From: Rhynochetos jubatus
Taxonomy: Eukaryota; Chordata; Aves; Eurypygiformes; Rhynochetidae
DNA length: 64,000 nt
Direction of reading: 5' to 3'
Assembly: GCA_027574665.1 (NCBI GenBank)
Contig: CM050672.1
Span: 11,392,001-11,456,000 of the forward strand
Under the pieces are notes generated by a model. That model worked only from the letters and a program-made list of their open reading frames with translations, ran no database searches and was not told the DNA's origin. Shown piece by piece: positions 1 through 64,000 of this stretch. Position numbers and translations under genes: made by a program. The stretch's first letter is position 1; each line of letters opens with the position of its first letter.

Positions 1-92
1 GCCAGGCCTCAAACCACGAGAAGCTCCAGCCCAAGATTCACCCAGAATGCAGCCCACATCCGGGAGAATCTCAAGAGCAGGGGGTGGAGCAA
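1..92 (+). repeat. First 92-bp unit, used as phase reference
   Basis: This unit fixes the numbering used here. It differs from the array consensus at positions 33-46, where it reads AAGATTCACCCAGAAT instead of the usual AAAAGGCAGCCAAAAT form; the same variant recurs near 4,990, 7,105, 10,150 and 28,735. Consensus landmarks are an AGGCCT palindrome at 4-9, CpG at 17-18 and 61-62, A4 tracts at 33-36 and 44-47, and G5 at 80-84. Positions 27-38, 39-49 and 50-60 form three imperfect 11-12-bp copies of a CAGCC(C)A-rich element. Positions 18-29 and 64-75 match at 10 of 12 bases, exactly 46 bp (half a unit) apart. Confidence 0.9.
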
Positions 93-3000
93 GGCAGGCC
101 TCAAACCACGAGAAGCTCCAGCCCAAAAGGCAGCCAAAATCCAGCCCACATCCGGGAGAATATCAAGAGTAGGAGGTGGAGCAAGCCAGGCCTCAAACCA
201 CGAGAAGCTCCAGCCCAAAAATCAGCCAAAATGCAGCCCACATCCAGGAGAATATCAAGAGCAGTGGGTGGAGCAAGCCAGGCCTCAAACCACGAGAAGC
301 TCCAGCCCAAAAGGCAGCCAAAATGCAGCCCACATCCGGGAGAATCTCAAGAGCAGGGGGTGGAGCAAGCCAGGCCTCAAACCACGAGAAGCTCCAGCCC
401 AAAAGGCAGCCAAAATCCAGCCCACCTCCGGGAGAATCTCAAGAGCAGGGGTTGGAGCAAGCCAGGCCTCAAACCACGAGAAGCTCCAGCCCAAAATGTA
501 GCCAAAATCCAGCCCACATCCGGGAGAATCTCAAGAGCAGGGGGTGGAGCAAGCCAGGCCTCAAACCACGAGAAGCTCCAGCCCAAAAGGCAGCCAAAAT
601 GCAGCCCACATCCGGGAGAATATCAAGAGCAGGGGGTGGAGCAAGCCAGGCCTCAAACCACGAGAAGCTCCAGCCCTAAAGGCAGCCAAAATGCAGCCCA
701 CATCCGGGAGAATCTCAAGAGCAGGGGGTGGAGCAAGCCAGGCCTCAAACCACGAGAAGCTCCAGCCCAAAAGGCAGCCAAAATCCAGCCCACATCCAGG
801 ACAATTTCAAGAGCAGGGGGTGGAGCAAGACAGGCCTCAAACCACGAGAAGCTCCAGCCCAAATGGCATCCAAAATCCAGCCCACATCCAGGAGAATTTC
901 AAGAGCAGGGGGTGGAGCAAGCCAGGCCTCAAACCACGAGAAGCTCCAGCCCTAAAGGCAGCCAAAATGCAGCCCACATCCGGAAGATTCTCAAGAGCAG
1001 GGGGTGGAGCAAGCCAGGCCTCAAACCTCGAGAAGCTCCAGCCCAAAATGCAGCCAAAATGCAGCCCACATCCGGGTGAATCTCAAGAGTAGGGGGTGGA
1101 GCAAGCCAGGACTCAAACCACGAGAAGCTCCAGCCCAAAAGGCAGCCAAAATCCAGCCCACATCTGGGAGAATCTCAAGAGCAGGGGGTGCAGTAAGCCA
1201 GGCCTCAAACCTCGAGAAGCTCCAGCCCAAAAGGCAGCCAAAATGCAGCCCACATCCGGGAGAATCTCAAGAGCAGGGGGTGGAGCAAGCCAGGCCTCAA
1301 ACCACGAGAAGCTCCAGCCCAAAATGTAGCCAAAATCCAGCCCACATCCGGGAGAATCTCAAGAGCAGGGGGTGGAGCAAGCCAGGCCTCAAACCTCGAG
1401 AAGCTCCAGCCCAAAATGTAGCCAAAATCCAGCCCACATCCGGGAGAATCTCAAGAGCAGGGGGTGGAGCAAGCCAGGCCTCAAACCACGAGAAGCTCCA
1501 GCCCAAAAGGCAGCCAAAATGCAGCCCACATCCGGGAGAATCTCAAGAGCAGGGGGTGGAGCAAGCCAGGCCTCAAACCACGAGAAGCTCCAGCCCTAAA
1601 GGCAGCCAAAATGCAGCCCACATCCGGGAGAATCTCAAGAGCAGGGGCTGGAGCAAGCCAGGCCTCAAACCACGAGAAGCTCCAGCCCAAAAGGCAGCCA
1701 AAATCCAGCCCACATCCGGGACAATTTCAAGAGCAGGGGGTGGAGCAAGCCAGGCCCCAAACCACGAGAATCTCCAGCCCAAAATGCAGCCAAAATCCAG
1801 CCCACATCCGGCAGAATCTCAAGAGCAGTGGTTGGAGCAAGCCAGGCCTCAAACCTCGAGAAGCTCCAGCCCAAAATGCAGCCAAAATCCAGCCCACATC
1901 CGGGAGAATATCAAGAGCAGGGGGTGGAGCAAGCCAGGCCTCAAACCTCGAGAAGCTCCAGCCCAAAAGGCAGCCAAAATGCAGCCCACATCCGGGAGAA
2001 TCTCAAGAGCAGGGGGTGGAGCAAGCCAGGCCTCAAACCACGAGAAGCTCCAGCCCAAAATGTAGCCAAAATGCAGCCCACATCCGGGAGAATCTCAAGA
2101 GCAGGGGGTGGAGCAAGCCAGGCCTCAAACCACGAGAAGCTCCAGACCAAAAGGCAGCCAAAATGCAGCCCACATCCGGGAGAATCTCAAGAGCAGGGGG
2201 TGGAGCAAGCCAGGCCTCAAACCACGAGAAGCTCCAGCCCAAAAGGCAGCCAAAATGCAGCCCACATCCGGGAGAATCTCAAGAGCAGGGGGTGGAGCAA
2301 GCCAGGCCTCAAACCACGAGAAGCTCCAGCCCTAAAGGCAGCCAAAATGCAGCCCACATCCGGGAGAATCTCAAGAGCAGGGGGTGGAGCAAGCCAGGCC
2401 TCAAACCACGAGAAGCTCCAGCCAAAGAATCACTCAGAATGCAGGCCACATCCGAGAGAATCTCAAGAGCAGGGGGTGGAGCAAGGCAGGCCTCAAACCA
2501 CGAGAAGCTCCGGCCCAAAAGGCAGCCAAAATCCAGGCCACATCCAGGAGAATTTCAAGAGCAGGGGGTGGAGCAAGCCAGGCCTCAAACCTCGAGAAGC
2601 TCCAGCCCAAAAGGCAGCCAAAATGCAGCCCACCTCTGGGAGAATCTCAAGAGCAGGGGGTGGAGCAAGCCAGGCCTCAAACCACGAGAAGCTCCAGCCC
2701 AAAATGTAGCCAAAATGCAGCCCACATCCGGGAGATTCTCAAGAGCAGGGGGTGGAGCAAGCCAGGCCTCAAACCACGAGAAGCTCCAGCCCAAAATGCA
2801 GCCAAAATGCAGCCCACATCCGGGAGAATCTCAAGAGCAGGGTGTGGAGCAAGCCAGGCCTCAAACCACGAGAAGCTCCAGCCCAAAAGGCAGCCAAATT
2901 CCAGCCCACATCCGGGACAATTTCAAGAGCACGGGGTGGAGCAAGCCAGGCCTCAAACCACGAGAAGCTCCAGCCCAAAATGCAGCGAATATCTAGCCCA

Positions 3001-3947
3001 CATCCGGGAGAATCTCAAGAGCAGGGGGTCGAGCAAGGCAGGCCTCAAACCACGAGAAGCTCCAGCCCAAAAGGCAGCCAAAATCCAGCCCACATCCGGG
3101 AGAATCTCAAGAGCAGGGGGTGGAAAAAGCCAGGCCTCAAACCTCGAGAAGCTCCAGCCCAAAAGGCAGCCAAAATGCAGCCCACATCCGGGAGAATATC
3201 AAGAGCGGGGGGTGGAGCAAGCCAGGCCTCAAACCACGCGAAGCTCCAGCCCAAAAGGCAGCCAAAATGCAGCCCACATCCGGGAGAATCTCAAGAGCAG
3301 AGGGTGGAGCAAGCCAGGCCTCAAACCTAGAAAAGCTCCACCCCAAAATGCAGCCAAAATGCAGCCCACATCCAGGAGAATCTCAAGAGCAGGGGGTGGA
3401 GCAAGCCAGGCCTCAAACCACGAGAAGCTCCAGCCCAAAAGGCAGCCAAAATCTAGCCCACATCCGGGAGAATCTCAAGAGCAGGGGGTGGAGCAAGCCA
3501 GGCCTCAAACCACGAGAAGCTCCAGCCCAAAAGGCAGCCAAAATCCAGCCCACATCCGGGAGAATCTCAAGAGCAGGGGGTGGAGCAAGCCAGGCCTCAA
3601 ACCACGAGAAGCTCCAGCCCAAAAGGCAGCCAAAATGCAGGCCACATCCGGGAGAATATCAAGAGCAGGGGGTGGAGCAAGCCAGGCCTCAAACCACGAG
3701 AAGCTCCAGCCCAAAAGGCAGCCAAAATCCAGCCCACATCCGGGAGAATCTCAAGAGCAGGGGGTGGAGCAAGCCAGGCCTCAAACCACGAGAAGCTCCA
3801 GCCCAAAAGGCAGCCAAAATGCAGCCCACATCTGGGAGAATCTCAAGAGCAGGGAGTGCAGCAAGCCAGGCCTCAAACCACGAGAAGCTCCAGCCCTAAA
3901 GGCAGCCAAAATCCAGCCCACATCCGGGAGAATATCAAGAGTAGGGG
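1..3947 (+). repeat. Array segment with mixed unit types, no clear higher-order period
   Basis: About 43 units in perfect 92-bp register. Unit types are intermingled: the AAAATGTAGCC variant (near 495, 1,325, 1,415, 2,060 and 2,705), the CCTAAAGGCAG variant, and the CTCGAG variant at unit positions 15-20. I did not find a block here that repeats at a fixed multiple of 92 bp in the way the next segment does. No gene, RNA gene or foreign insertion is visible. Confidence 0.85.
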
Positions 3948-6900
3948 GTGGAGCAAGCCAGGCCTCAAACCATGAGAAGCTCCAGCCCAAAAGGCAGCCA
4001 AAATGCAGCCCACATCCGTGAGAATCTCAAGAGCAGTGGGTGGAGCAAGCCAGGCCTCAAACCACGAGAAGTTCCAGCCCAAAAGGCAGCCAAAATGCAG
4101 CCCACATCCGGGAGAATCTCAAGAGCAGGGGGTGGAGCAAGCCAGGCCTCAAACCACGAGAAGCTCCAGCCCAAAAGGCAGCCAAAATCCAGCCCACATC
4201 CGGGAGAATCTCAAGAGCAGGGGGTGGAGCAACCCAGGCCTCAAACCTCGAGAAGCTCCAGCCCAAAATGCAGCCAAAATCCAGCGTACATCCGGGAGAT
4301 TCTCAAGAGCAGGGGCTGGAGCAAGCCAGGCCTCAAACCTCGAGAAGCTCCAGCCCAAAAGGCAGCCAAAATGCAGCCCACATCCGGGAGAATCTCAAGA
4401 GCAGGGGGTGGAGCAAGCCAGGCCTCAAACCACGAGAAGCTCCAGCCCAAAATGTAGCCAAAATTCAGCCCACATCCGGGAGAATCTCAAGAGCAGGGGG
4501 TGGAGCAAGCCAGGCCTCAAACCACGAGAAGCTCCAGCCCAAAATGTAGCCAAAATGCAGCCCACATCCGGGAGAATCTCAAGAGCAGGGGGTGGAGCAA
4601 GGCAGGCTTCAAACCACGAGAAGCTCCAGCCCAAAATGCAGCCAAAATGCAGCCCACCTCCGGGAGAATCTCAAGAGCAGGGGGTGGAGCAAGCCAGGCC
4701 TCAAACCACGAGAAGCTCCAGCCCAAAAGGCAGCCAAAATGCAGCCCACATCCGGGAGAATCTCAAGAGCAGGGGGTGGAGCAAGCCAGGCCTCAAACCA
4801 CGAGAAGCTCCAGCCCAAAAAGCAGCCAAAATACAGCCCACATCCAAAAGAATATGAAGAGCAGGGGGTGGAGCAATCCAGGCCTCAAACCACGAGAAGC
4901 TCCAGCCCAAAAGGCAGCCAAAATGCAGGCCACATCCGGGAGAATATCAAGAGCAGGGGGTGGAGCAAGCCAGGCCTCAAACCACGAGAAGCTCCAGCCC
5001 AAGATTCACCCAGAATGCAGGCCACATCCGGGAGAATATCAAGAGTAGGGGGTGGAGCAAGCCAGGCCTCAAACCATGAGAAGCTCCAGCCCAAAAGGCA
5101 GCCAAAATGCAGCCCACATCCGGGAGAATCTCAAGAGCAGTGGGTGGAGCAAGCCAGGCCTCAAACCACGAGAAGTTCCAGCCCAAAAGGCAGCCAAAAT
5201 GCAGCCCACATCCGGGAGAATCTCAAGAGCAGGGGGTGGAGCAAGCCAGGCCTCAAACCACGAGAAGCTCCAGCCCAAAAGGCAGCCAAAATGCAGCCCA
5301 CATCCGGGAGATTCTCAAGAGCAGGGGGTGGAGCAAGCCAGGCCTCAAACCTCGAGAAGCTCCAGCCCAAAATGCAGCCAAAATCCAGCGTACATCCGGG
5401 AGATTCTCAAGAGCAGGGGCTGGAGCAAGCCAGGCCTCAAACCTCGAGAAGCTCCAGCCCAAAAGGCAGCCAAAATGCAGCCCACATCCGGGAGAATATC
5501 AAGAGCAGGGGGTGGAGCAAGCCAGGCCTCAAACCACGAGAAGCTCCAGCCCAAAATGTAGCCAAAATTCAGCCCACATCCGGGAGAATCTCAAGAGCAG
5601 GGGGTGGAGCAAGCCAGGCCTCAAACCACGAGAAGCTCCAGCCCAAAATGTAGCCAAAATGCAGCCCACATCCGGGAGAATCTCAAGAGCAGGGGGTGGA
5701 GCAAGGCAGGCTTCAAACCACGAGAAGCTCCAGCCCAAAATGCAGCCAAAATCCAGCCCACCTCCGGGAGAATCTCAAGAGCAGGGGGTGGAGCAAGCCA
5801 GGCCTCAAACCACGAGAAGCTCCAGCCCAAAAGGCAGCCAAAATGCAGCCCACCTCCGGGAGAATCTCAAGAGCAGGGGGTGGAGCAAGCCAGGCCTCAA
5901 ACCACGAGAAGCTCCAGCCCAAAAGGCAGCCAAAATCCAGCCCACCTCCGGGAGAATCTCAAGAGCAGGGTGTGGAGGAAGCCAGGCCTCAAACCACGAG
6001 AAGCTCCAGCCCCAAATGCAGCCAAAATGAAGCCCACATCCGGGAGAATATCAAGAGCAGGGGGTGGAGCAAGCCAGGCCTCAAACCATGAGAAGCTCCA
6101 GCCCAAAAGGCAGCCAAAATGCAGCCCACATCCGGGAGAATCTCAAGAGCAGTGGGTGGAGCAAGCCAGGCCTCAAACCACGAGAAGTTCCAGCCCAAAA
6201 GGCAGCCAAAATGCAGCCCACATCCGGGAGAATCTCAAGAGCAGGGGGTGGAGCAAGCCAGGCCTCAAACCACGAGAAGCTCCAGCCCAAAAGGCAGCCA
6301 AAATCCAGCCCACATCCGGGAGAATCTCAAGAGCAGGGGGTGGAGCAACCCAGGCCTCAAACCTCGAGAAGCTCCAGCCCAAAATGCAGCCAAAATCCAG
6401 CGTACATCCGGGAGATTCTCAAGAGCAGGGGCTGGAGCAAGCCAGGCCTCAAACCTCGAGAAGCTCCAGCCCAAAAGGCAGCCAAAATGCAGCCCACATC
6501 CGGGAGAATCTCAAGAGCAGGGGGTGGAGCAAGCCAGGCCTCAAACCACGAGAAGCTCCAGCCCAAAATGTAGCCAAAATTCAGCCCACATCCGGGAGAA
6601 TCTCAAGAGCAGGGGGTGGAGCAAGCCAGGCCTCAAACCACGAGAAGCTCCAGCCCAAAATGTAGCCAAAATGCAGCCCACATCCGGGAGAATCTCAAGA
6701 GCAGGGGGTGGAGCAAGGCAGGCTTCAAACCACGAGAAGCTCCAGCCCAAAATGCAGCCAAAATGCAGCCCACCTCCGGGAGAATCTCAAGAGCAGGGGG
6801 TGGAGCAAGCCAGGCCTCAAACCACGAGAAGCTCCAGCCCAAAAGGCAGCCAAAATGCAGCCCACATCCGGGAGAATCTCAAGAGCAGGGGGTGGAGCAA

Positions 6901-8731
6901 GCCAGGCCTCAAACCACGAGAAGCTCCAGCCCAAAAAGCAGCCAAAATACAGCCCACATCCAAAAGAATATGAAGAGCAGGGGGTGGAGCAATCCAGGCC
7001 TCAAACCACGAGAAGCTCCAGCCCAAAAGGCAGCCAAAATGCAGGCCACATCCGGGAGAATATCAAGAGCAGGTGGTGGAGCAAGCCAGGCCTCAAACCA
7101 CGAGAAGCTCCAGCCCAAGATTCACCCAGAATGCAGGCCACATCCGGGAGAATATCAAGAGTAGGGGGTGCAGCAAGCCAGGCCTCAAACCATGAGAAGC
7201 TCCAGCCCAAAAGGCAGCCAAAATGCAGCCCACATCCGGGACAATCTCAAGAGCAGGAGGTGGAGCAAGCCAGGCCTCAAACCACGAGAAGTTCCAGCCC
7301 AAAAGGCAGCCAAAATGCAGGCCACATCCAGGACAATCTCAAGAGCAGGGGGTGGTGCAAGCCAGGCCTCAAACCACGAGAAGCTCCAGCCCAAAAGGCA
7401 GCCAAAATGCAGCCCACATCCGGGAGAATCTCAAGAGCAGGGGGTGGAGCAAGCCAGGCCTCAAACCTCGAGAAGCTACAGCTCAAAAGGCAGCCAAAAT
7501 GCAGCCCACATCCAGGAGAATCTCAAGAGCAGGGGGTGGAGCAAGCCAGGCCTCAAACCACGAGAAGCTCCAGCCCAAAAGGCAGCCAAAATGCAGCCCA
7601 CATCCGGGAGAATCTCAAGAGCAGGGGGTGGAGCAAGCCAGGCCTCAAACCACGAGAAGCTCCAGCCCTAAAGGCAGCCAAAATCCAGCCCACATCCGGG
7701 AGAATATCAAGAGTAGGGGGTGGAGCAAGCCAGGCCTCAAACCATGAGAAGCTCCAGACCAAAAGGCAGCCAAAATGCAGCCCACATCCGGGAGAATCTC
7801 AAGAGGAGGGGGTGGAGCAAGCCAGGCCTCAAACCACGAGAAGTTCCAGCCCAAAAGGCAGCCAAAATGCAGCCCACATCCGGGAGAATCTCAAGAGCAG
7901 GGGGTGGAGCAAGCCAGGCCTCAAACCACGAGAAGCTCCAGCCCAAAAGGCAGCCAAAATGCAGCCCACATCCGGGAGATTCTCAAGAGCAGGGGGTGGA
8001 GCAAGCCAGGCCTCAAACCTCGAGAAGCTCCAGCCCAAAATGCAGCCAAAATCCAGCGTACATCCGGGAGATTCTCAAGAGCAGGGGCTGGAGCAAGCCA
8101 GGCCTCAAACCTCGAGAAGCTCCAGCCCAAAAGGCAGCCAAAATGCAGCCCACATCCGGGAGAATATCAAGAGCAGGGGGTGGAGCAAGCCAGGCCTCAA
8201 ACCACGAGAAGCTCCAGCCCAAAATGTAGCCAAAATTCAGCCCACATCCGGGAGAATCTCAAGAGCAGGGGGTGGAGCAAGCCAGGCCTCAAACCACGAG
8301 AAGCTCCAGCCCAAAATGTAGCCAAAATGCAGCCCACATCCGGGAGAATCTCAAGAGCAGGGGGTGGAGCAAGGCAGGCTTCAAACCACGAGAAGCTCCA
8401 GCCCAAAATGCAGCCAAAATCCAGCCCACCTCCGGGAGAATCTCAAGAGCAGGGGGTGGAGCAAGCCAGGCCTCAAACCACGAGAAGCTCCAGCCCAAAA
8501 GGCAGCCAAAATGCAGCCCACCTCCGGGAGAATCTCAAGAGCAGGGGGTGGAGCAAGCCAGGCCTCAAACCACGAGAAGCTCCAGCCCAAAAGGCAGCCA
8601 AAATGCAGCCCACCTCCGGGAGAATCTCAAGAGCAGGGTGTGGAGGAAGCCAGGCCTCAAACCACGAGAAGCTCCAGCCCCAAATGCAGCCAAAATGAAG
8701 CCCACATCCGGGAGAATATCAAGAGCAGGGG
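3948..8731 (+). repeat. Higher-order repeat zone A: alternating 12-mer and 11-mer blocks
   Basis: A marker unit with CCATGAG in place of CCACGAG, followed by a unit with AGCAGTGGGTGG or a related form, recurs near 3,968, 5,072, 6,084, 7,188 and 7,740. Spacings are 1,104, 1,012, 1,104 and 552 bp (12, 11, 12 and 6 units). The block at about 4,020-5,060 matches about 6,136-7,176 at 2,116 bp (23 units), including a distinctive CATCCAAAAGAATATG unit at 4,841 and 6,957. The block at about 5,120-6,040 matches about 7,788-8,708 at 2,668 bp (29 units). Adjacent pairs of AAAATGTAGCC units at 4,450/4,542, 5,554/5,646, 6,568/6,660 and 8,224/8,316 confirm the alignment. No length change occurs in the zone. 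Confidence 0.88.
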
Positions 8732-47699: not shown

Positions 47700-48800
47700 T
47701 GCAGCCCACATCCGGGAGAATCTCAAGAGCAGGGGGTGGAGCAAGCCAGGCCTCAAACCACGAGAAGCTCCAGCCCAAAAGGCAGCCAAAATGCAGCCCA
47801 CATCCGGGAGAATCTCAAGAGCAGGGGGTGGAGCAAGCCAGGCCTCAAACCTCGAGAAGCTCCAGCCCAAGAATCAGACAAAATGCAGCCCACATCCAGG
47901 AGAATCTCAAGAGCAGGGGGTGGAGCAAGCCAGGCCTCAAACCACGAGAAGCTCCAGCCCAAACGCAGCCAAAATGCAGCCCACCTCCGGGAGAATCTCA
48001 AAGGCAGAGTTTGGAGAAATCCAGGCCTCAAACCACGAGAAGCTCAAGCCCTAAAGGCAGCCAAAATGCAGCCCACATCCAGGAGAATATCAAGAGCAGG
48101 GGGTGGAGCAAGCCAGGCCTCAAACCACGAGAAGCTCCAGCCCAAAAGGCAGCCAAAATGCAGCCCACATCCGGGAGAATATCAAGAGCAGGGGCTGGAG
48201 CAAGCCAGGCCTCAAATCACGAGAAGCTCCAGCCCAAAAGGCAGCCAAAATGCAGCCCACATCCGGGACAATCTCAAGAGCAGGGGGTGGAGCAATGCAG
48301 GCCTCAAACCACGAGAAGCTCCAGCCCAAAAGGCAGCCAAAATGCAGCCCACATCCGGGAGAATCTCAAGAGCAGGGGGTGGAGCAAGCCAGGCCTCAAA
48401 CCTCGAGAAGCTCCAGCCCAAGAATCAGACAAAATGCAGCCCACATCCAGGAGAATCTCAAGAGCAGGGGGTGGAGCAAGCCAGGCCTCAAACCACGAGA
48501 AGCTCCAGCCCAAACGCAGCCAAAATGCAGCCCACCTCCGGGAGAATCTCAAATGCAGAGTTTGGAGAAATCCAGGCCTCAAACCACGAGAAGCTCAAGC
48601 CCTAAAGGCAGCCAAAATGCAGCCCACATCCAGGAGAATATCAAGAGCAGGGGGTGGAGCAAGCCAGGCCTCAAACCACGAGAAGCTCCAGCCCAAAAGG
48701 CAGCCAAAATGCAGCCCACATCCGGGAGAATATCAAGAGCAGGGGCTGGAGCAAGCCAGGCCTCAAATCACGAGAAGCTCCAGCCCAAAAGGCAGCCAAA
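47700..48800 (+). repeat. Six-unit (551-bp) tandem duplication carrying a one-base loss
   Basis: The block from about 47,700 recurs at about 48,250, offset 551 bp (six units minus one base). Both copies contain a CCCAAACGCAGCC unit with a one-base loss (47,958 and 48,511), a GAGTTTGG unit (47,999 and 48,550) and a CAAGCCCTAAAGGC unit. The shared loss shows the indel predates the duplication. An older CCCAAACGCAGCC unit at 47,130 may be the source. Confidence 0.83.
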
Positions 48801-51800: not shown

Positions 51801-54800
51801 CAAACCACGAGAAGCTCCAGCCCAAAAGGCAGCCAAAATGCAGCCCACATCCGGGAGAATCTCAAGAGCAGGGGGTGGAGCAAGCCAGGCCTCAAACCAC
51901 GAGAAGCTCCAGCCCAAAAGGCAGCCAAAATGCAGCCCACATCCGGGAGAATATCAAGAGCAGGGCGTGGAGCAAGCCAGGCCTCAAACCACGAGAAGCT
52001 CCAGCCCAAAAGGCAGCCAAAATCCAGCCCACATCCGGGAGAATCTCAAGAGCAGGGGGTCGAGCAAGCCAGGCCTCAAACCACGAGAATCTCCAGCCCA
52101 AAATGCAGTCAAAATGCAGCCCACATCCGGGAGAATCTCAAGAGCAGGGGGTGGAGCAAGCCAGGCCTCAAACCTCGAGAAGCTCCAGCCCAAAAGTCAG
52201 CCAAAATGCAGCCCACCTCCGGGAGAATCTCAAGAGCAGGGGGTGGAGCAAGCCAGGCCTCAAACCACGAGAAGCTCCAGCCCAAAAGGCAGCCAAAATG
52301 CAGCCCACATCCGGGAGAATATCAAGAGCAGGGGCTCGAGCAAGACAGGCCTCAAACCACGAGAAGCTCCAGCCCAAAAGGCAGCCAAAATGCAGCCCAC
52401 ATCCGGGAGAATTTCAAGAGCAGGGAGTGGAGCAAGCCAGGCCTCAAACCACGAGAAGCTCCAGCCCAAAAGGCAGCCAAAATGCAGCCCACATCCGGGA
52501 GAATATCAAGAGCAGGGGGTGGAGCAAGCCAGGCCTCAAACCACGAGAAGCTCCAGCCCAAAATGCAGCCAAAATCCAGCCCACATCCGGGAGAATCTCA
52601 AGAGCAGGGGCTCGAGCAAGGCAGGCCTCAAACCACGAGAAGCTCCAGCCCAAAAGGCAGCCAAAATGCAGCCCACATCCGGGAGAATATCAAGAGCAGG
52701 GCGTGGAGCAAGCCAGGCCTCAAACCACGAGAAGCTCCAGCCCAAAATGCAGCCAAAATCCAGCCCACATCCGGGAGAATCTCAAGAGCAGGGGCTCGAG
52801 CAAGGCAGGCCTCAAACCACGAGAAGCTCCAGCCCAAAAGGCAGCAAATATGCAGCCCACATCCGGGAGAATCTCAAGAGCAGGGAGTGGAGCAAGCCAG
52901 GCCTCAAACCACGAGAAGCTCCAGCCCAAAAGGAAGACAAAATGCAGCCCATATCCGGGAGAATCTCAAGAGCAGGGGGTGGAGCAAGGCAGGCCTCAAA
53001 CCACGAGAAGCTCCAGCCCAAAATGCAGCCAAAATGCAGCCCACATCCAGGAGAAACTCAAGAGCAGGGGGTGGAGCAAGGCAGGCCTTAAACCACGAGA
53101 AGCTCCAGCCCAAAATTCAGCCAAAATGCAGCCCACATCCGGGAGAATCTCAAGAGCAGGGGGTGGAGCACACCAGGCCTCAAACCACGAGAAGCTCCAG
53201 CCCAAAAGGCAGCCAAAATGCAGCCCACCTCCGGGAGAATCTCAACAGCAGGGGGTGGAGCAAGCCAGGCCTCAAACCACGAGAAGCTCCAGCCCAAGAA
53301 TCAGCCAAAATGCAGACCACATCAGGGAGAATCTCAGGAGCAGGGGATGGAGCAAGCCAGGCCTCAAACCACGAGAAGCTCCAGCCCAAGAATCGGCCAA
53401 TATGCAGCCCACATCCGGGAGAATCTCAAGAGCAGGGGGTGGAGCAAGCCAGGTCTCAAACCACGAGAAGCTCCAGCCCAAAATTCAGCCAAAATGCAGC
53501 CCACATCGGGCAGAATCTCAAGAGCAGGGGGTGGAGCAAGCCAGGCCTCAAACCACGAGAAGCTCCAGCCCAAGAATCACTCAAAATGCAGCCCACATCC
53601 GGGAGAATCTCAAGAGCAGGGTGTGGAGCAAGGCAGGCTTCAAACCTCGAGAAGCTCCAGCCCAAAAGGCAGCCAAAATGCAGCCCACCTCCGGGAGAAT
53701 CTCAAGAGCAGGGGGTGGAGCAAGCCAGGCCTCAAACCACGAGAAGCTCCAGACCAAAAGGCAGCCAAAATGCAGCCCACATCCGGGAGAATCTCAAGAG
53801 CAGGGGGTGGAGCAAGCCAGGCCTCAAACCACGAGAAGCTCCAGGCCAAAAGACAGCCAAAATGCAGCCCATATCCGGGAGAATCTCAAGAGCAGGGGGG
53901 GGAGCAAGCCAGGCCTCAAACCTCGAGAAGCTCCAGCCCAAAAGGCAGCCAAAATGCAGCCCACCTCCGGGAGAATCTCAAGAGCAGGGGGTGGAGCAAG
54001 CCAGGCCTCCAACCACGAGAAGCTCCAGCCCAAAATGCAGCCAAAATCCAGCCCACATCCGGGAGAATCTCAAGAGCAGGGGCTCGAGCAAGCCAGGCCT
54101 CAAACCACGAGAAGCTCCAGCCCAAAAGGAAGATAAAATGCAGCCCATATCCGGGAGAATCTCAAGAGCAGGGGCTGGAGCAAGCCAGGCCTCAAACCAC
54201 GAGAAGCTCCAGCCCAAGAATCACTCAAAATGCAGCCCACATCCGGGAGAATCTCAAGAGCAGGGGGTGGAGCAAGCCAGGCCTCAAACCACGAGAAGCT
54301 CCAGCCCAAAAGGCAGCCAAAATGCAGCCCACATCTGGGAGAATCTCAAGAGCAGGGGGTGGAGCAAGCCAGGCCTCAAACCACGAGAAGCTCCAGCCCA
54401 AAAGGCAGCCAAAATCCAGCCCACATCCGGGAGAATCTCAAGAGCAGGGGGTGGAGCAAGCCAGGCCTCAAACCATGAGAAGTTCCAGCCCAAAATTCAG
54501 CCAAAATGCAGCCCACATCCGGGAGAATCTCAAGAGCAGGGGGTGGAGCAAGCCAGGCCTCAAACCACGAGAAGCTCCAGCCCAAGAATCAGTCAATATG
54601 CAGCCCACATCCGGGAGAATCTCAAGAGCAGGGGGTGGAGCAAGCCAGGCCTCAAACCTCGAGAAGCTCCAGCCCAAAAGGCAGCCAAAATGCAGCCCAC
54701 ATCCGGGAGAATCTCAAGAGCAGGGGGTGGAGCAAGCCAGGCCTCAAACCACGAGAAGCTCCAGCCCAAAAGGCAGCCAAAATGCAGCCCACATCCGGGA

Positions 54801-54812
54801 GAATCTCAATAG
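48654..54812 (+). other. Longest stop-free stretch; not considered a gene
   Basis: One forward frame stays open for about 2,052 codons. It translates as tandem copies of a basic 92-residue peptide (short motifs include KPGLKPREAP, RISRAGGG and ARPQTTRSSSP), because three 92-bp units equal 92 codons. Against a gene: the two other forward frames are also open for over 1,000 codons within it (49,813-53,091 and 51,047-54,136); the same property exists across the array; single-base indels are tolerated; and there is no distinctive start context, signal peptide or non-repeat domain. It shows that stop-creating variants (TAG in GTAGCC or GAGTAGG, TAA in CCTTAAACC) are scarce in this part of the array. 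Confidence 0.85.
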
Positions 54813-57313
54813 CAGGGTGTGGAGCAAGGCAGGCTTCAAACCTCGAGAAGCTCCAGCCCAAAAGGCAGCCAAAATGCAGCCCACCTCCGGGAGAATCTCA
54901 AGAGCAGGGGGTGGAGCAAGCCAGGCCTCAAACCACGAGAAGCTCCAGACCAAAAGGCAGCCAAAATGCAGCCCACATCCGGGAGAATATCAAGAGCAGG
55001 GGGTGGAGCAAGCCAGGCCTCAAACCACGAGAAGCTCCAGCCCAAAAGACAGCCAAAATGCAGCCCATATCCGGGAGAATCTCAAGAGCAGGGGGTGGAG
55101 CAAGCCAGGCCTCAAACCTCGAGAAGCTCCAGCCCAAATGGCAGCCAAAATGCAGCCCACCTCTGGGAGAATCTCAAGAGCAGGGGGTGGAGCAAGCCAG
55201 GCCTCCAACCACGAGAAGCTCCAGCCCAAAATGCAGCCAAAATCCAGCCCACATCCGGGAGAATCTCAAGAGCAGGGGCTCGAGCAAGCCAGGCCTCAAA
55301 CCACGAGAAGCTCCAGCCCAAAAGGAAGATAAAATGCAGCCCACATCCGGGAGAATCTCAAGAGCAGGGGGTGGAGCAAGCCAGGCCTCAAACCACGAGA
55401 AGCTCCAGCCCAAAAGGCAGCCAAAATGCAGCCCACATCCGGGAGAATATCAAGAGCAGGGCGTGGAGCAAGCCAGGCCTCAAACCACGAGAAGCTCCAG
55501 CCCAAAAGGCAGCCAAAATCCAGCCCACATCCGGGAGAATCTCAAGAGCAGGGGGTCGAGCAAGCCAGGCCTCAAACCACGAGAATCTCCAGCCCAAAAT
55601 GCAGTCAAAATGCAGCCCACATCCGGGAGAATCTCAAGAGCAGGGGGTGGAGCAAGCCAGGCCTCAAACCTCGAGAAGCTCCAGCCCAAAAGGCAGCCAA
55701 AATGCAGCCCACATGTGGGAGAATCTCAAGAGCAGGGGCTCGAGCAAGACAGGCCTCAAACCACGAGAAGCTCCAGCCCAAAAGGCAGCCAAAATGCAGC
55801 CCACATCCGGGAGAATTTCAAGAGCAGGGAGTGGAGCAAGCCAGGCCTCAAACCACGAGAAGCTCCAGCCCAAAAGGAAGACAAAATGCAGCCCATATCC
55901 GGGAGAATATCAAGAGCAGGGGCTGGAGCAAGCCAGGCCTCAAACCACGAGAAGCTCCAGCCCAAAAGGCAGCCAAAATGCAGCCCACATCCGGGAGAAT
56001 CTCAAGAGCAGGGGGTGGAGCAAGCCAGGCCTCAAACCACGAGAAGCTCCAGCCCAAAATGCAGCCAAAATCCAGCCCACATCCGGGAGAATCTCAAGAG
56101 CAGGGGCTCGAGCAAGGCAGGCCTCAAACCACGAGAAGCTCCAGCCCAAAAGGCAGCCAAAATGCAGCCCACATCCGGGAGAATATCAAGAGCAGGGGGT
56201 GGAGCAAGCCAGGCCTCAAACCACGAGAAGCTCCAGCCCAAAATGCAGCCAAAATCCAGCCCACATCCGGGAGAATCTCAAGAGCAGGGGCTCGAACAAG
56301 GCAGGCCTCAAACCACGAGAAGCTCCAGCCCAAAAGGCAGCAAATATGCAGCCCACATCCGGGAGAATCTCAAGAGCAGGGAGTGGAGCAAGCCAGGCCT
56401 CAAACCACGAGAAGCTCCAGCCCAAAAGGAAGACAAAATGCAGCCAACCTGCGGGAGAATCTCAAGAGCAGGGGGTGGAGCAAGCCAGGCCTCAAACCAC
56501 TAGAAGCTCCAGCCCAAATGGCAGCCAAAATGCAGCCCACATCCGGGAGAATCTCAAGAGCAGGGGGTGGAGCAAGCCAGGCCTCAAACCACGAGAAGCT
56601 CCAGCCCAAAATGCAGTCAAAATGCAGCCCACATCCGGGAGAATCTCAAGAGCAGGGGGTGGAGCAAGCCAGGCCTAAAACCTCGAGAAGCTCCAGCCCA
56701 AAAGGCAGCCAAAATGCAGCCCACATCCGGGAGAATCTCAAGAGCAGGGGTTGGAGCAAGCCAGGCCTCAAACCACGAGAAGCTCCAGACCAAAATGCAG
56801 CCAAAATCCAGCCCACATCCCGGAAAATTTCAAGAGCAGGGGGTGGAGCAAGCCAGGCCTCAAACCACGAGAAGCTCCAGCCCAAAAGGAAGACAAATTG
56901 CAGCCCACATCCGGGAGAATCTCAAGAGCAGGGGGTGGAGCAAGCCAGGCCTCAAACCACGAGAAGCTCCAGCCCAAAAGGCAGCCAAAATCCAGCCCAC
57001 ATCCAGTACAGTATCAAGAGCAGGGGGTGGAGCAAGCCAGGCCTCAAACCACGAGAAGCTCCAGCCCAAAAGGCAGCCAAAATCCAGCCCACATCCAGTA
57101 CAGTATCAAGAGCAGGGGGTGGAGCAAGCCAGGCCTCAAACCTCGAGAAGCTCCAGCCCAAAAAGCAGCCAAAATCCAGCCCACCTCCGGGAGAATCTCA
57201 AGAGCAGGGGGTGGAGCAAGGCAGGCCTCAAACCACGAGAACCTCCAGCCCAAAATGCAGCCAAAATGCAGCCCACCTCCGGGAGTATATCAAGAGCAGG
57301 GGGTGGAGCAAGG
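48958..57313 (+). repeat. Array zone G: relatively homogeneous units with 13-41-unit block copies
   Basis: Units here are closer to consensus than at 20-40 kb. Block copies include about 50,600-52,200 against 54,280-55,700 (offset falling from 3,681 to 3,496 bp), about 53,640-54,220 against 54,836-55,420 (1,196 bp, 13 units), and about 51,524-51,830 against 53,916-54,220 (2,392 bp, 26 units). Shared markers are CAACCACGAGAAG, AAAGGAAGACAAAATG (or GATAAAATG) and GGGGCTCGAGC. The only length change is a one-base gain at 50,993 (CCCTTAAGTGCAGCC). Units at 57,000 and 57,092 both carry CATCCAGTACAGTATC, a single-unit duplication. No gene is visible. Confidence 0.83.
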
Positions 57314-58483
57314 CAGGCCTCAAACCACGAGAAGCTCCAGCCCAAAATGCAGCCAAAATGCAGCCCACATCCAGGAGAAACTCAAGAGCAGGGGGTGGAG
57401 CAAGGCAGGCCTTAAACCACGAGAAGCTCCAGCCCAAAATTCAGCCAAAATGCAGCCCACATCCGGGAGAATCTCAAGAGCAGGGGGTGGAGCACACCAG
57501 GCCTCAAACCACGAGAAGCTCCAGCCCAAAAGGCAGCCAAAAGTTTGCCCACATCCGGGAGAATCTCAAGAGCGGTGGGTGGAGCAAGCCAGGCCTCAAA
57601 CCACGAGAAGCTCCAGCCCAAAAGGCAGCCAAAATGCAGCCCACCTCCGGGAGAATCTCAACAGCAGGGGGTGGAGCAAGCCAGGCCTCAAACCTCGAGA
57701 AGCTCCAGCCCAAAAGGCAGCCAAAATCCAGCCCACATCCGGGAGAATCTCAAGAGCAGGGGCTCGAGCAAGGCAGGCCTCAAACCACGAGAAGCTCCAG
57801 CCCAAAAGGCAGCCAAAATGCAGCCCACATCCAGGAGAATCTCAAGAGCAGGGGTGGAGTAAGGCAGGCCTCAAACCACGAGAACCTCCAGCCAAAAATG
57901 CAGCCAAAATGCAGCCCACATCCAGGAGAAACTCAAGAGCAGGGGGTGGAGCAAGGCAGGCCTTAAACCACGAGAAGCTCCAGCCCAAAAGGCAGCCAAA
58001 ATGCAGCCCACATCCGGGAGAATATCAATAGCAGGGGGTGGAGCAAGCCAGGCCTCAAACCACGAGAAGCTCCAGCCCAAAAAGGCAGCCAAAATGCAGC
58101 CCACATCCGGGAGAATCTCAAGAGCAGGGGGTGGAGCAAGCCAGGCCTCAAACCACGAGAAGCTCCAGCCCAAGAATCGGCCAATATGCAGCCCACATCC
58201 GGGAGAATCTCAAGAGCAGGGGGTGGAGCAAGCCAGGCCTCAAACCGCGAGAAGCTCCAGCCCAAGAATCAGCCAATATGCAGCCCACATCCGGGAGAAT
58301 CTCAAGAGCAGGGGGTGGAGCAAGCCAGGCCTCAAACCATGAGAAGTTCCAGCCCAAAAGGCAGCCAAAATGCAGCCCACATCTGGGAGAATCTCAAGAG
58401 CAGGGGGTGGAGCAAGCCAGGCCTCAAACCACGAGAAGTTCCAGCCCAAAACCAGCGAAAATGCAGCCCACATCCGGGAGAAT
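57314..58483 (+). repeat. First copy of a 1,170-bp duplication
   Basis: This stretch matches 59,061-60,230 at a 1,747-bp offset at all positions I compared; the pair diverges at 57,313/59,060 and 58,484/60,231. It carries three length changes: a loss at 57,851 (GAGCAGGGGTGGAG), a gain at 58,078-58,084 (CCCAAAAAGGCAGCC) and a loss at 58,445-58,455 (CCCAAAACCAGCG). Other private markers are AAAAGTTTGCCC and CCTTAAACC. An older relative of its left part lies at about 53,030-53,300. Confidence 0.9.
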
Positions 58484-59060
58484 CTCAAGAGCAGGGGGTG
58501 GAGCAAGCCAGGCCTCAAACCACGAGAAGCTCCAGCCCAAGAATCAGCCAAAATGCAGACCACATCAGGGAGAATCTCAGGAGCAGGGGATGGAGCAAGC
58601 CAGGCCTCAAACCACGAGAAGCTCCAGCCCAAGAATCGGCCAATATGCAGCCCACATCCGGGAGAATCTCAAGAGCAGGGGGTGGAGCAAGCCAGGTCTC
58701 AAACCACGAGAAGCTCCAGCCCAAGTATCACCCAAAATGCAGCCCACATCTGGGAGAATCTCAAGAGTAGGGGGTGGAGCAAGCCAGGCCTCAAACCACG
58801 AGAAGCTCCAGCCCAAAAGGCAGCCAAAATGCAGCCCACATCCGGGAGAATCTCAAGAGCAGGGGGTGGAGCAAGCCAGGTCTCAAACCACGAGAAGCTC
58901 CAGCCCAAAAGGCAGCCAAAATGCAGCCAACCTGCGGGAGAATCTCAAGAGCAGGGGGTGGAGCAAGCCAGGCCTCAAACCACGAGAAGCTCCAGCCCAA
59001 AAGGCAGCCAAAATGCAGCCCACATCCGGGAGAATCTCAAGAGCAGGGGGTGGAGCAAGC
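58484..59060 (+). repeat. Satellite units between the two 1,170-bp copies
   Basis: About six ordinary units. One carries CAGACCACATCAGGG followed by CTCAGGAGCAGGGGATGG (near 58,557), shared with units near 53,320 and 60,487. Another carries CCAACCTGCGGGAG (near 58,927), shared with 56,447. No other element. Confidence 0.85.
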
Positions 59061-60230
59061 CAGGCCTCAAACCACGAGAAGCTCCAGCCCAAAATGCAGC
59101 CAAAATGCAGCCCACATCCAGGAGAAACTCAAGAGCAGGGGGTGGAGCAAGGCAGGCCTTAAACCACGAGAAGCTCCAGCCCAAAATTCAGCCAAAATGC
59201 AGCCCACATCCGGGAGAATCTCAAGAGCAGGGGGTGGAGCACACCAGGCCTCAAACCACGAGAAGCTCCAGCCCAAAAGGCAGCCAAAAGTTTGCCCACA
59301 TCCGGGAGAATCTCAAGAGCGGTGGGTGGAGCAAGCCAGGCCTCAAACCACGAGAAGCTCCAGCCCAAAAGGCAGCCAAAATGCAGCCCACCTCCGGGAG
59401 AATCTCAACAGCAGGGGGTGGAGCAAGCCAGGCCTCAAACCTCGAGAAGCTCCAGCCCAAAAGGCAGCCAAAATCCAGCCCACATCCGGGAGAATCTCAA
59501 GAGCAGGGGCTCGAGCAAGGCAGGCCTCAAACCACGAGAAGCTCCAGCCCAAAAGGCAGCCAAAATGCAGCCCACATCCAGGAGAATCTCAAGAGCAGGG
59601 GTGGAGTAAGGCAGGCCTCAAACCACGAGAACCTCCAGCCAAAAATGCAGCCAAAATGCAGCCCACATCCAGGAGAAACTCAAGAGCAGGGGGTGGAGCA
59701 AGGCAGGCCTTAAACCACGAGAAGCTCCAGCCCAAAAGGCAGCCAAAATGCAGCCCACATCCGGGAGAATATCAATAGCAGGGGGTGGAGCAAGCCAGGC
59801 CTCAAACCACGAGAAGCTCCAGCCCAAAAAGGCAGCCAAAATGCAGCCCACATCCGGGAGAATCTCAAGAGCAGGGGGTGGAGCAAGCCAGGCCTCAAAC
59901 CACGAGAAGCTCCAGCCCAAGAATCGGCCAATATGCAGCCCACATCCGGGAGAATCTCAAGAGCAGGGGGTGGAGCAAGCCAGGCCTCAAACCGCGAGAA
60001 GCTCCAGCCCAAGAATCAGCCAATATGCAGCCCACATCCGGGAGAATCTCAAGAGCAGGGGGTGGAGCAAGCCAGGCCTCAAACCATGAGAAGTTCCAGC
60101 CCAAAAGGCAGCCAAAATGCAGCCCACATCTGGGAGAATCTCAAGAGCAGGGGGTGGAGCAAGCCAGGCCTCAAACCACGAGAAGTTCCAGCCCAAAACC
60201 AGCGAAAATGCAGCCCACATCCGGGAGAAT
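59061..60230 (+). repeat. Second copy of the 1,170-bp duplication
   Basis: Copy of 57,314-58,483, repeating the same three one-base length changes at 59,598-59,602, about 59,825 and about 60,192. The offset of 1,747 bp is 19 units minus one base, the missing base being the third indel of the first copy. A fragment with the third indel recurs once more at about 61,018. Confidence 0.9.
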
Positions 60231-63200
60231 ATCAAGAGCAGGGGGTGGAGCAAGCCAGGCCTCAAACCTCGAGAAGCTCCAGCCCAAAAGGGAGCCAAAA
60301 TGCAGCCCACATCCGGGAGAATCTCAAGAGCAGGGGGTGGAGCAAGCCAGGCCTCAAACCACGAGAAGCTCCAGCCCAAAAGGCAGCCAAAATGCAGCCC
60401 ACATCCGGGAGAATCTCAAGAGCAGGGGGTGGAGCAAGCCAGGCCACAAACCTCGAGAAGCTCCAGCCCAAAATACAGCCAAAATGCAGACCACATCAGG
60501 GAGAATCTCAGGAGCAGGGAATGGAGCAAGCCAGGCCTCAAACCACGAGAAGCTCCAGCCCAAGAATCGGCCAAAATGCAGCCCACATCCGGGAGAATCT
60601 CAAGAGCAGGGGGTGGAGCAAGCCAGGCCTCAAACCACGAGAAGCTCCAGCCCAAAAGGCAGCCAAAATGCAGCCCACATCCAGGAGAATATCAAGAGCA
60701 GGGGGTGGAGCAAGCCAGGCCTCAAACCACGAGAAGCTCCAGCCCAAGAATCGGCCAATATGCAGCCCACATCCGGGAGAATCTCAAGAGCAGGGGGTGG
60801 AGCAAGCCAGGCCTCAAACCGCGAGAAGCTCCAGCCCAAGAATCAGCCAATATGCAGCCCACATCCGGGAGAATCTCAAGAGCAGGGGGTGGAGCAAGGC
60901 AGGCCTCAAACCACGAGCAGCTCCAGCCCAAAAGGCAGCCAAAATGCAGCCCACATCCGGGAGAATCTCAAGAGCAGGGGGTGGAGCAAGCCAGGCCTCA
61001 AACCACGAGAAGTTCCAGCCCAAAACCAGCGAAAATGCAGCCCACATCCGGGAGAATATCAAGAGCAGGGGGTGGAGCAAGCCAGGCCTCAAACCACGAG
61101 AAGCTCCAGCCCAAGAATCAGCCAATATTCAGCCCACATCCGGGAGAATCTCAAGAGCAGGGGGTGGAGCAAGCCAGGCCTCAAACCACGAGAAGTTCCA
61201 GCCCAAAAGGCAGCCAAAATGCAGCCCACATCCGGGAGAATCTCAAGAGCAGGGGCTGGAGAAAGCCAGGCCTCAAACCATGAGAAGCTCCAGCCCAAAA
61301 TGTAGCCAAAATGCAGCCCACATCCAGGAGAATATCAAGAGCAGGGGGTGGAGCAAGCCAGGCCTCAAACCTCGAGAAGCTCCAGCCCAAAAGGGAGCCA
61401 AAATGCAGCCCACATCCGGGAGAATCTCAAGAGCAGGGGCTGGAGCAAGCCAGGCCTCAAACCACGAGAAGCTCCAGCCCAAAAGGCAGCCAAAATCCAG
61501 CCCACCTCCGGGAGAATCTCAAGAGCAGGGGGTGGAGCAAGCCAGGCCTCAAACCACGAGAAGCTCCAGCCCAAAATGCAGCCAAAATGCAGCCCACCTC
61601 CGGGAGAATCTCAAGAGTAGGGGGTGGAGCAAGCCAGGCCTCAAACCACGAGAAGCTCCAGCCCAAAATGCAGCCAAAATGCAGCCCACATCCGGGAGAA
61701 TCTCAAGAGCAGGGGGTTGAGCAAGCCAGGCCTCAAACCACGAGAAGCTCCAGCCCAAAATGCAGCCAAAATGCAGCCCACGTCCAGGAGAATCTCAAGA
61801 GCAGGGGGTGGAGCAAGCCAGGCCTCAAACCACGAGAAGCTCCAGCCCAAAAGGCAGCCAAAATGCAGCCCACATCCGGGAGAATCTCAAGAGCAGGGGG
61901 TGGAGCAAGCCAGGCCTCAAACCACGAGAAGCTCCAGCACAAAATGCAGCCAAAATGCAGCCCACATCCAGGAGAATATCAAGAGCAGGGGGTGGAGCAA
62001 GCCAGGCCTCAAACCATGAGAAGCTCCAGCCCCAAAGGCAGCCAAAATGCAGCCCACATCCGGGAGAATCTCAAGAGCAGGGGGTGGAGCAAGCCAGGCC
62101 TCAAACCACGAGAAGCTCCAGCCCAAAAGGCAGCCAAAATGCAGCCCACCTCCGGGAGAATCTCAAGAGCAGGGGGTGGAGCAAGCCAGGCCTCAAACCA
62201 CGAGAAGCTCCAGCCCAAAAGGCAGCCAAAATCCAGCCCACCTCCGGGAGAATCTCAAGAGCAGGGGGTGGAGCAAGCCAGGCCTCAAACCACGAGAAGC
62301 TCCAGCCCAAAATGCAGCCAAAATCCAGCCCACCTCCGGGAGAATCTCAAGGGCAGGGGGTGGAGCAAGCCAGGCCTCAAACCACGAGAAGCTCCAGCCC
62401 AAAATTCAGCCAAAATGCAGCCCACATCCAGGAGAATATCAAGAGCAGGGGGTGGAGCAAGCCAGGCCTCAAACCACGAGAAGCTCCAGCCCAAAAGGGA
62501 GCCAAAAGACAGCCCACATCCGGGAGAATCTCAAGAGCAGGGGCTGGAGCAAGCCAGGCCTCAAACCACGAGAAGCTCCAGCCCAAATGGCAGCCAAAAT
62601 GCAGCCCACATCCGGGAGAATATCAAGAGCAGGGGTTGGAGCGAGCCAGGCCTCAAACCACGAGAAGCTCCAGCCCAAAATGCAGCCAAAATGCAGCCCA
62701 CCTCCGGGAAAATCTCAAGAGCAGGGGGTGGAGCAAGCCAGGCCTCAAACCACGGGAAGCTCCAGGGCAAGAATCAGCCAAAATGCATCCCACATCCGGG
62801 AGAATCTCAAGAGCAGGGGCTGGAGCAAGCCAGGCCTCAAACCACGAGAAGCTCCAGCCCAAAAGGCAGCCAAAATCCATCCCACCTCCGGGAGAATCTC
62901 AAGAGCAGGGGGTGGAGCAAGCCAGGCCTCAAACCACGAGAAGCTCCAGCCCAAAATGCAGCCAAAATGCAGCCCACCTCCGGGAGAATCTCAAGGGCAG
63001 GGGGTGGAGCAAGCCAGGCCTCAAACCACGAGAAGCTCCAGCCCAAAATGCAGCCAAAATGCAGCCCACATCCGGGAGAATCTCAAGAGCAGGGGGTTGA
63101 GCAAGCCAGGCCTCAAACCACGAGAAGCTCCAGCCCAAAATGCAGCCAAAATGCAGCCCACGTCCAGGAGAATCTCAAGAGCAGGGGGTGGAGCAAGCCA

Positions 63201-64000
63201 GGCCTCAAACCACGGGAAGCTCCAGCCCAAAAGGCAGCCAAAATGCAGCCCACATCCAGGAGAATCTCAAGAGCAGGGGGTGGAGCAAGCCAGGCCTCAA
63301 ACCACGAGAAGCTCCAGCCCAAGAATCAGCCAAAATGCAGCCCACATCCGGGAGAATCTCAAGAGCAGGGGGTGGAGCAAGCCAGGCCTCAAACCACGAG
63401 AAGCTCCAGCACAAAAGGCAGCCAAAATCCAGCCCAACTCCGGGAGAATCTCAAGAGCAGGGGGTGGAGCAAGCCAGGCCTCAAACCACAAGAAGCTCCA
63501 GCCCAAAAGGCAGCCAAAATGCAGCCCACATCCGGGAGAATCTCAAGAGCAGGGGGTGGAGCAAGCCGGGCCTCAAACCACGAGAAGCTCCAGCCCAAAA
63601 GGCAGCCAAAATACAGCCCACATGCGGGAGAATCTCAAGAGCAGGGGGTGGAGCAAGCCAGGCCCCAAACCACGAGAAGCTCCAGCCCAAAAGACAGCCA
63701 AAATGCAGCCCACATCCGGGAGAATCTCAAGAGCAGGGGGTTGAGCAAGCCAGGCCTCAAACCACGAGAAACTGTAGCCCAAAGGGCAGCCAAAATGCAG
63801 CCCACATCCGGGAGAATCTCAAGAGCAGGGGGTGGAGCAAGGCAGGCCTCAAACCACGAGAAGCTCCAGCCCAAAAGGCAGCCAAAATGCAGCCCACATC
63901 CGGGAGAACCTCAAGAGCAGGGGGTGGAGCAAGGCAGGCCTCAAACCACGAGAAGCTCCAGCCCAAAAGGCAGCCAAAATGCAGCCCACATCCGGGAGAA
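60231..64000 (+). repeat. Final array segment, close to consensus
   Basis: About 41 units to the cut end. The CCCAAAACCAGCG unit with a one-base loss lies at 61,018. About 61,549-61,850 matches 62,929-63,230 at 1,380 bp (15 units), sharing GGGGGTTGAGC and CACGTCCAGGAG. Units with AAAAGGGAGCC recur near 60,288, 61,390 and 62,494. The last complete unit ends at 63,932 and the window stops 68 bp into the next, so the array continues beyond it. Confidence 0.86.

Follow-up and report, generated by a model that had tools for sequence, protein, structure and literature searches.

The stretch analysed here (the window: 64,000 nucleotides, C27:11,392,001-11,456,000) lies on a bird contig of 11,634,699 bases, C27, and is occupied from its first to its last letter by a satellite with a 92-bp unit. 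Tandem Repeats Finder (TRF) returned a single array at 1-64000 with period 92, 695.7 copies, 92% matches and 0% indels. A cyclic dynamic-programming segmentation divided the same sequence into 696 units, 695 of them full and one a partial unit of 68 nt, so that the 695 full units in one orientation reported by the first-pass annotation are an exact count. The full units measure 92 bp in 669 cases, 91 bp in 17 and 93 bp in 9, and the insertions within the window are of single bases only. Identity to the consensus averages 95.65% when all 696 units are scored (with 92 columns for the partial one), and identity between units about 92%; 471 of the 696 unit sequences are distinct and 26 copies equal the consensus. 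The base composition and the strand skew are even along the window, and therefore no strand switch takes place within it. The regularity of this 64-kb array is far above chance, and with its uniform, non-coding units following each other head to tail over such a length it qualifies as satellite DNA. The features of the window are as follows:

1..64000, plus strand: array of the 92-bp satellite, with 695 full units followed by a partial one, all in a single orientation (TRF and segmentation)
1..92, plus strand: unit 1 of the register adopted; the consensus is GCCAGGCCTCAAACCACGAGAAGCTCCAGCCCAAAAGGCAGCCAAAATGCAGCCCACATCCGGGAGAATCTCAAGAGCAGGGGGTGGAGCAA, with an internal periodicity of 46/23/11.5 bp
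46..1076 (from C27:11392046), plus strand: tract of 1031 nt, 99.5-99.6% identical on contigs C53 and C141
18402..41397, plus strand: centre of the window, where the units diverge more (pairwise identity averaging 0.909-0.915 in groups of 50 units)
54176..55205, plus strand: tract of 1030 nt, 99.1% identical in a coordinate-chosen probe of contig C34 (L078)
57314..58483, plus strand: longest exact repeat in the window (1170 bp), first copy
59061..60230, plus strand: longest exact repeat, second copy, 1747 bp (19 units) downstream
63933..64000, plus strand: partial unit of 68 nt, truncated by the end of the window; the adjoining probe L033 continues the array

The way in which the copies resemble each other was informative about the turnover of the array. 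Unit-to-unit identity is flat, between 0.922 and 0.927, for lags of 1 to 60 units. A higher-order repeat running over the whole window was therefore rejected: no identity peaks appear at multiples of a fixed unit number, and only local blocks are found. In fact, 28 blocks, each of four or more units in a row, are repeated 5 to 68 units away (median 25) with no more than one mismatch in any unit, and involve 209 of the 695 units; when the order of the units was shuffled (20 shuffles, lags 1-59), at most 3 such blocks were obtained. The 1170-bp exact repeat is a recent duplication by register shift. The ends of the window are less divergent than its centre (pairwise identity of 0.938-0.942 in the first 100 and in the last 45 units), and most common variants are scattered across the window, some being limited to its left or middle part. 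When the variants at the four CpG columns were excluded, all four combinations were present in 275 of 816 variant pairs, and mean linkage (r2) decreased from 0.077 for variants 1-2 bp apart to 0.004 for those 36-48 bp apart. Since the medians are flat, this decay argues weakly for short-tract conversion. Unequal exchange or slippage would maintain the array, the register shifting each time by as much as the block offsets (0.5-6 kb).

Two groups of variants deserve a separate mention. A linked change in unit columns 35-38 (A35G in 87 copies, A36T in 53, G37A in 94 and G38T in 112) marks a cluster of 83 units. These are represented in 13 of the 14 50-unit bins, as though a single multi-base event had started the cluster. 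Moreover, the hexamer CCCTAA occurs 19 times in the window; these occurrences would correspond to the A33T unit variant (23 copies) rather than to telomeric sequence.

The searched genome (1,331,379,947 bases in 148 contigs) is marked as that of a bird by at least 150 matches to avian keratin (PF02422) on C1, C15, C28, C32 and C35, obtained from the 150 of 197 candidates that were scored, as compared to none in 14 control genomes. Its contig sizes point the same way: C1, C2 and C3 measure 149, 136 and 126 Mb, respectively, and 11 of 20 contigs inspected besides C1 measure 2.3 to 18.3 Mb. The surroundings of the window were characterized by means of probes of C27 that were picked by coordinate and scored for their share of 92-bp repeat. 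Between 9.352 and 11.612 Mb, 32 of 39 probes consisted of the 92-bp repeat over at least 99.7% of the probe, 12 on the minus and 20 on the plus strand. By this measure, the 92-bp zone spans about 2.26 Mb close to the contig end. The 7 remaining probes, two of which overlap, contained a 22-bp satellite, a 23-bp-type composite, GC-rich tandem repeats and a spacer. Along C27, the probes gave the following order:

8.89-9.31 Mb: 176/177-bp repeat with TTAGGG runs in its unit, 93-97% pure in four probes (L066, L067, L068, L095)
9.35-9.49 Mb, minus strand: 92-bp block
9.69 Mb, plus strand: 92-bp block
9.89 Mb: 22-bp satellite
10.04-10.24 Mb, minus strand: 92-bp block
10.29-10.87 Mb, plus strand: 92-bp block
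10.880-10.905 Mb: other repeats
10.92-11.04 Mb, minus strand: 92-bp block
11.09-11.61 Mb, plus strand: 92-bp block holding the window
11.618 Mb: composite
final 10 kb of C27: spacer (L043)

The minus-to-plus switches are placed with the resolution of the distance between probes. The first-pass annotation had also proposed that the array is longer than the window, and this is borne out by the 10 kb on each side and by all 14 plus-strand probes from 11.09 to 11.61 Mb, which are 92-bp repeat. Its description of a pure array with no transposon, inversion or unique DNA holds for the window and fails for the zone as a whole, of which the window samples one block: elsewhere on C27 the orientation alternates and other repeats interrupt the satellite. 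On the arm side, none of six probes at 6.0 and 8.39-8.79 Mb contained the 92-bp repeat, and the 176/177-bp repeat sits between the chromosome arm and the 92-bp zone. Contig C34 behaves like C27, considering that it has both plus and minus 92-bp probes at 4.5-5.3 Mb and ends with composite, 22-bp satellite and GC-rich tandem repeats.

Some observations on neighbouring repeats and contig ends were made along the way. The GC-rich 22-bp satellite (CCCGCCCCCTCGCCCCTTTAGC and variants), 97-100% pure, is found on C27 and also terminates C34, whereas on C120, C124 and C24 it lies at the contig start (L045, L055, L060, L061, L075, L090). The opposite end of C27, read for 5 kb (L037, C27:1-5000), begins with a tandem repeat that has a 472-bp unit and a purity of 98%; a telomere array is absent from it. 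The starts of C147 (L062) and C148 (L063) carry 2.5 kb of telomere repeat, followed in C147 by a run of N, and the first 5 kb of C25 (L058) are all N.

The 92-bp satellite was found on at least 15 contigs (C24, C25, C27, C34, C53, C56, C61, C62, C116, C117, C120, C124, C133, C141 and C147), a list that is a lower bound, 40 of 2512 candidates having been scored. The differentiation between these arrays was estimated on coordinate-chosen probes of C34, C116, C117, C56, C61, C141 and C27, together with the window, after dropping the first 10 units of C141, which form an array edge. The 28 pairwise values of the fixation index (Fst) ranged from -0.009 to 0.070, with a median of 0.019, the highest being that of the window with respect to C141. 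Groups including loci picked by similarity gave a similar, although biased, picture (Fst 0.022). Outside the window, 82 of 601 units were letter-identical to some window unit, with none among the 36 on C141. This near-zero differentiation, together with the 28 near-identical blocks, supports the homogenisation that the first-pass annotation had deduced from the purity of the array.

Longer stretches are shared as well, as measured by a diagonal scan in which tract edges vary with the scoring. Four loci of C53 and C141 match the tract that begins at window base 46 with an identity of 99.5-99.6% over 1022-1031 nt, and one on C34 matches it with 98.8% over 1277 nt; the left edge of the tract is common to these five of the seven similarity-picked loci. 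Among 22 coordinate-chosen probes, one (C34) contained the 1030-nt tract listed above, whereas the longest stretch shared by each of the remaining 21 measures 162-542 nt. Block duplications, low Fst and shared tracts amount to concerted evolution of the copies, and the duplicated blocks and the tracts of about 1 kb common to other contigs support unequal exchange plus ectopic transfer. Such tracts would move between contigs by ectopic conversion or insertion, with the consequence that the contigs would draw on a common pool of variants and higher-order repeats specific to one chromosome would not form.

The same tracts, about 1.03 kb long and with sharp edges at unrelated places on other contigs, might also be taken to mean that copies spread mostly by extrachromosomal circles or by insertion of amplified segments, rather than by unequal exchange and conversion in place, and the presence of both array orientations on one contig is in keeping with this mode. 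We consider it unlikely, although it deserves some weight. In fact, nested duplications at many offsets in one window fit local register shifts, the edges shift with the scoring, and similarity had guided the choice of five among the seven loci first compared.

The 92-bp unit itself appears to be built of shorter units. The periodicity of the consensus was measured before the flanks were read: its self-similarity is highest at lags 46, 23, 12, 40, 29, 11 and 17, which are near multiples of 5.75 bp. The strongest harmonic is in fact that of 5.75 bp (k=16; p 0.0002 with respect to mononucleotide and 0.005 with respect to dinucleotide shuffles), and the self-similarity at lag 46 has p values of 0.001 and 0.003, respectively. 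The flanks of the arrays carry a degenerate 23-bp minisatellite, GCCCAAGTCCAGGAGAAATTCCA, partly organized as composites of 57, 126, 218 and 310 bp. On C27 it borders the array at two edges and on C34 it lies at the contig end, whereas C53, C124, C141 and C24 have it at their starts. When aligned with the cyclic 23-mer, the 92-bp consensus scored 85, as compared to 24 for the reverse strand and to maxima of 62 and 66 in 500 shuffles of the unit and 500 shuffles of the motif, respectively. The unit thus aligns gap-free to four 23-bp units above shuffled controls, as a 23-bp derivative should, and an ungapped alignment of the consensus to the 310-bp composite extends over 102 columns. The best flank copies in L055, L060, L075 and L094 are 79-80% identical to the 92-bp unit over 115-131 bases; that in L087 is 73% identical over 107 bases.

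We read the 92-bp unit, on these alignments, as four 23-bp units that were fixed and amplified. The direction was probably from 23 to 92 bp, because the 23-bp zone is more divergent and contains mixed composites. The ancestor would be the degenerate 23-bp minisatellite, whose unit consists of roughly two halves of 11-12 bp; this minisatellite would have drifted, and one 4 x 23-bp stretch would have turned into the 92-bp unit and then been amplified.

Taken together, the data make it likely, in our judgement, that the window belongs to a non-coding satellite that builds a heterochromatin block near the end of a bird microchromosome, is present also on other contigs, originated from the 23-bp minisatellite and is kept uniform by unequal exchange and ectopic transfer. 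The block probably occupies a short arm or pericentromere. Its heterochromatic state, the marking of the centromere by the 177-bp TTAGGG repeat and a purely structural role of the satellite are further inferences.

Several points weigh against this reading. When all harmonics are considered together, the periodicity of the consensus has p values of just 0.024 (mononucleotide) and 0.064 (dinucleotide shuffles), and the 23-bp motif was selected after the flanks were seen, even though the periodicity had been measured earlier. The C27 probe at 9.33 Mb shows a 23/46-bp periodicity, and yet a 17-mer of the 23-bp motif is unmatched in it. With flat linkage medians, the support for short-tract conversion is weak. 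Nor can the 15 contigs be counted as 15 chromosomes, since the majority are small and C53 and C141 may represent a single locus in two versions; the census being a lower bound, macrochromosomes could still hold the repeat.

It might also be supposed that the 92-bp array is the functional centromere repeat, with CENP-A chromatin on it and a homogenisation that reflects centromere drive. Two units measure 184 bp, close to the nucleosome repeat, the arrays reach megabase size near one end of C27 and one unit is common to many contigs. We nevertheless regard this as improbable, considering that the 176/177-bp repeat lying between the arm and the 92-bp zone is itself a candidate centromere repeat. 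In the excerpts of a study on chicken, TTAGGG is often found within the CENP-A core (PMC9974502), which counts against the 92-bp repeat as the centromere. The same holds for the orientation switches and the spacers within the zone. Nor is a CENP-B box present, although birds may not need one: with respect to the mammalian motif, the consensus misses 3 of the 9 core bases on the plus strand and 4 on the minus strand, and no exact core occurs in the window.

The single plus/minus boundary that was read closely on C27 corresponds to a spacer with a palindrome (L050, C27:10,888,001-10,898,000). The spacer was also found at the C27 end (L043), the C62 start (L076) and the C116 start (L059). The palindrome arms are 100% identical over 2781 nt in L050 and 99.6% identical over 3113 nt in L043, with a loop of about 2.16 kb. 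The copies in L043 and L050 differ by about 1.4%, that in L059 is 98.3-98.9% like the others, and the identity between L043 and L076 is 99.5-99.9%. Within the 5 kb read of each, neither L076 nor L059 contains an inverted pair. As a coding element the spacer was rejected: no Pfam match at E 0.01 was obtained for L043 (8 of its 25 open frames of at least 120 amino acids were scanned). No Rfam match at gathering score was obtained in five loci outside the window, the spacer included.

The identity of the arms would be accounted for either by arm-to-arm conversion or by a fold-back error. The former might be extended to a more general picture, in which the chromosome ends are mirrored on a megabase scale (from the palindrome through a GC-rich tandem mix that includes the 22-bp satellite, the 23-bp minisatellite and the 92-bp array to an orientation switch, after which the layers follow in reverse) and the palindromes repair arm-to-arm by conversion and serve as recombination hubs spreading the common satellite pool over non-homologous chromosomes. 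This picture is speculative and, to our mind, rather doubtful. As for the latter, array length, orientation switches or palindromes might all be assembly errors (collapse, expansion or fold-back), as would be in line with the perfect arms of L050 and with the fact that C27, C62 and C116 start or end within the spacer. It seems quite improbable that such errors account for the arrangement, since the units are diverse (471 of 696 distinct), two palindrome copies about 1.4% apart both show inverted arms, and plus and minus arrays differ in sequence.

That the T-poor plus strand is the gene of a giant repeat protein can hardly be maintained: the cyclic consensus has no stop codon in any of the three plus-strand frames, 77 stop-to-stop frames of at least 300 amino acids (the longest of 2068) all lie on the plus strand and there is an overall depletion of changes that create stops (p 0.024 with CpG sites excluded), but 6.5% of shuffled consensi are stop-free as well, no substitution class is significant alone (lowest p 0.17), C-to-T stops are not depleted, 244 plus-strand stops occur in the window, the 26 full units that differ from 92 bp shift the frame, and in the 3 of 77 frames scanned against Pfam no single stretch passes. 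The matches to SspN and DUF6401 arise from summed repeats and were discarded. The 92-bp satellite is non-coding. Similarly, an RNA gene was rejected, the Rfam matches in window 1-4000 (SNORD23, mir-557) being far under the gathering scores. The fold of one unit plus 32 nt is no better than that of dinucleotide shuffles (z -0.48), and the inverted self-match of the unit has a p value of 0.37. A prokaryotic, phage or plasmid source was rejected too: window 1-2000 is unmatched in phages and plasmids, three 20-21-mers gave no matches in viral contigs, and the 17-mer matches at 6 viral-contig and 11 genome-contig loci have as best similarity, in all 17, one stretch of 17-22 bases, as occurs by chance.

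The observed/expected ratio of CpG is 0.26. Transitions at the four CpG positions amount to 46.8 copies per site on average, as compared to 10.4 at CHG and 10.6 at CHH sites (p 0.0026; these are counts of copies, not of events). This decay fits CG methylation as in animals; no plant-type CHG decay is seen in the window.

Most satellites are described without an ancestor, whereas here the 23-bp minisatellite, composites about 79% like the unit and homogenised arrays adjoin on several contigs. With the three side by side, the birth and the spread of a satellite become datable and testable in one genome and its relatives. Since arrays of different contigs are nearly identical and have tracts of about 1 kb in common, exchange between non-homologous chromosomes of a bird can be measured. 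For the contig breaks that occur there, the palindromic spacers offer a candidate cause. The traced ancestor, the alternating orientation and the pool common to several contigs are thus of specialist interest.

A named match for the 92-bp unit was not found in the open literature, which is the scope of this search (Dfam, Repbase and nt lying outside it). Words of the unit and of its relatives occur in no satellite paper among the open-access texts; PMC11804790, which is unrelated, holds one 14-mer. The search for 92-bp satellites pointed, besides soybean, to Hordeum chilense (PMC11447152) and to a Leptodactylus frog (PMC12638755), the match in Harttia is a 920-bp repeat (PMC11955569), and no avian one is listed. 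The 92-bp centromeric satellite CentGm-1 of soybean (PMC8496230, in excerpt), compared by description only, has an equal unit length; this is most likely a coincidence, because the host here is a bird. The 190-bp APL-HaeIII centromeric satellite of duck (PMC11745021, in excerpt), also compared by description only, is likewise one satellite common to many bird chromosomes, although its unit length differs.

A further resemblance, again by description only, is to the chicken CNM 41-bp repeat and to acrocentric short arms, which in the excerpts of PMC9974502 combine a tandem microchromosome satellite near one chromosome end with TTAGGG-containing sequence. The period here is 92 (4 x 23, internally 46/23/11.5) and not the 41-42 bp of CNM, and no higher-order repeat runs over the window, whereas CNM forms higher-order repeats of 26-98 copies. 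The 92-bp zone of C27 reaches about 2.26 Mb as compared to 0.2-0.8 Mb for chicken centromeres, and its alternating orientation with a palindromic spacer is unmentioned for CNM in those excerpts (PMC9974502). The 92-bp repeat takes its place among the avian satellites. Satellites built up from repeated copies of a short motif, for instance the mouse major satellite, keep in the long unit the periodicity of the shorter ancestor. With respect to satellites of that type, the 92-bp repeat has the degenerate short repeat and its composites still adjoining the arrays.

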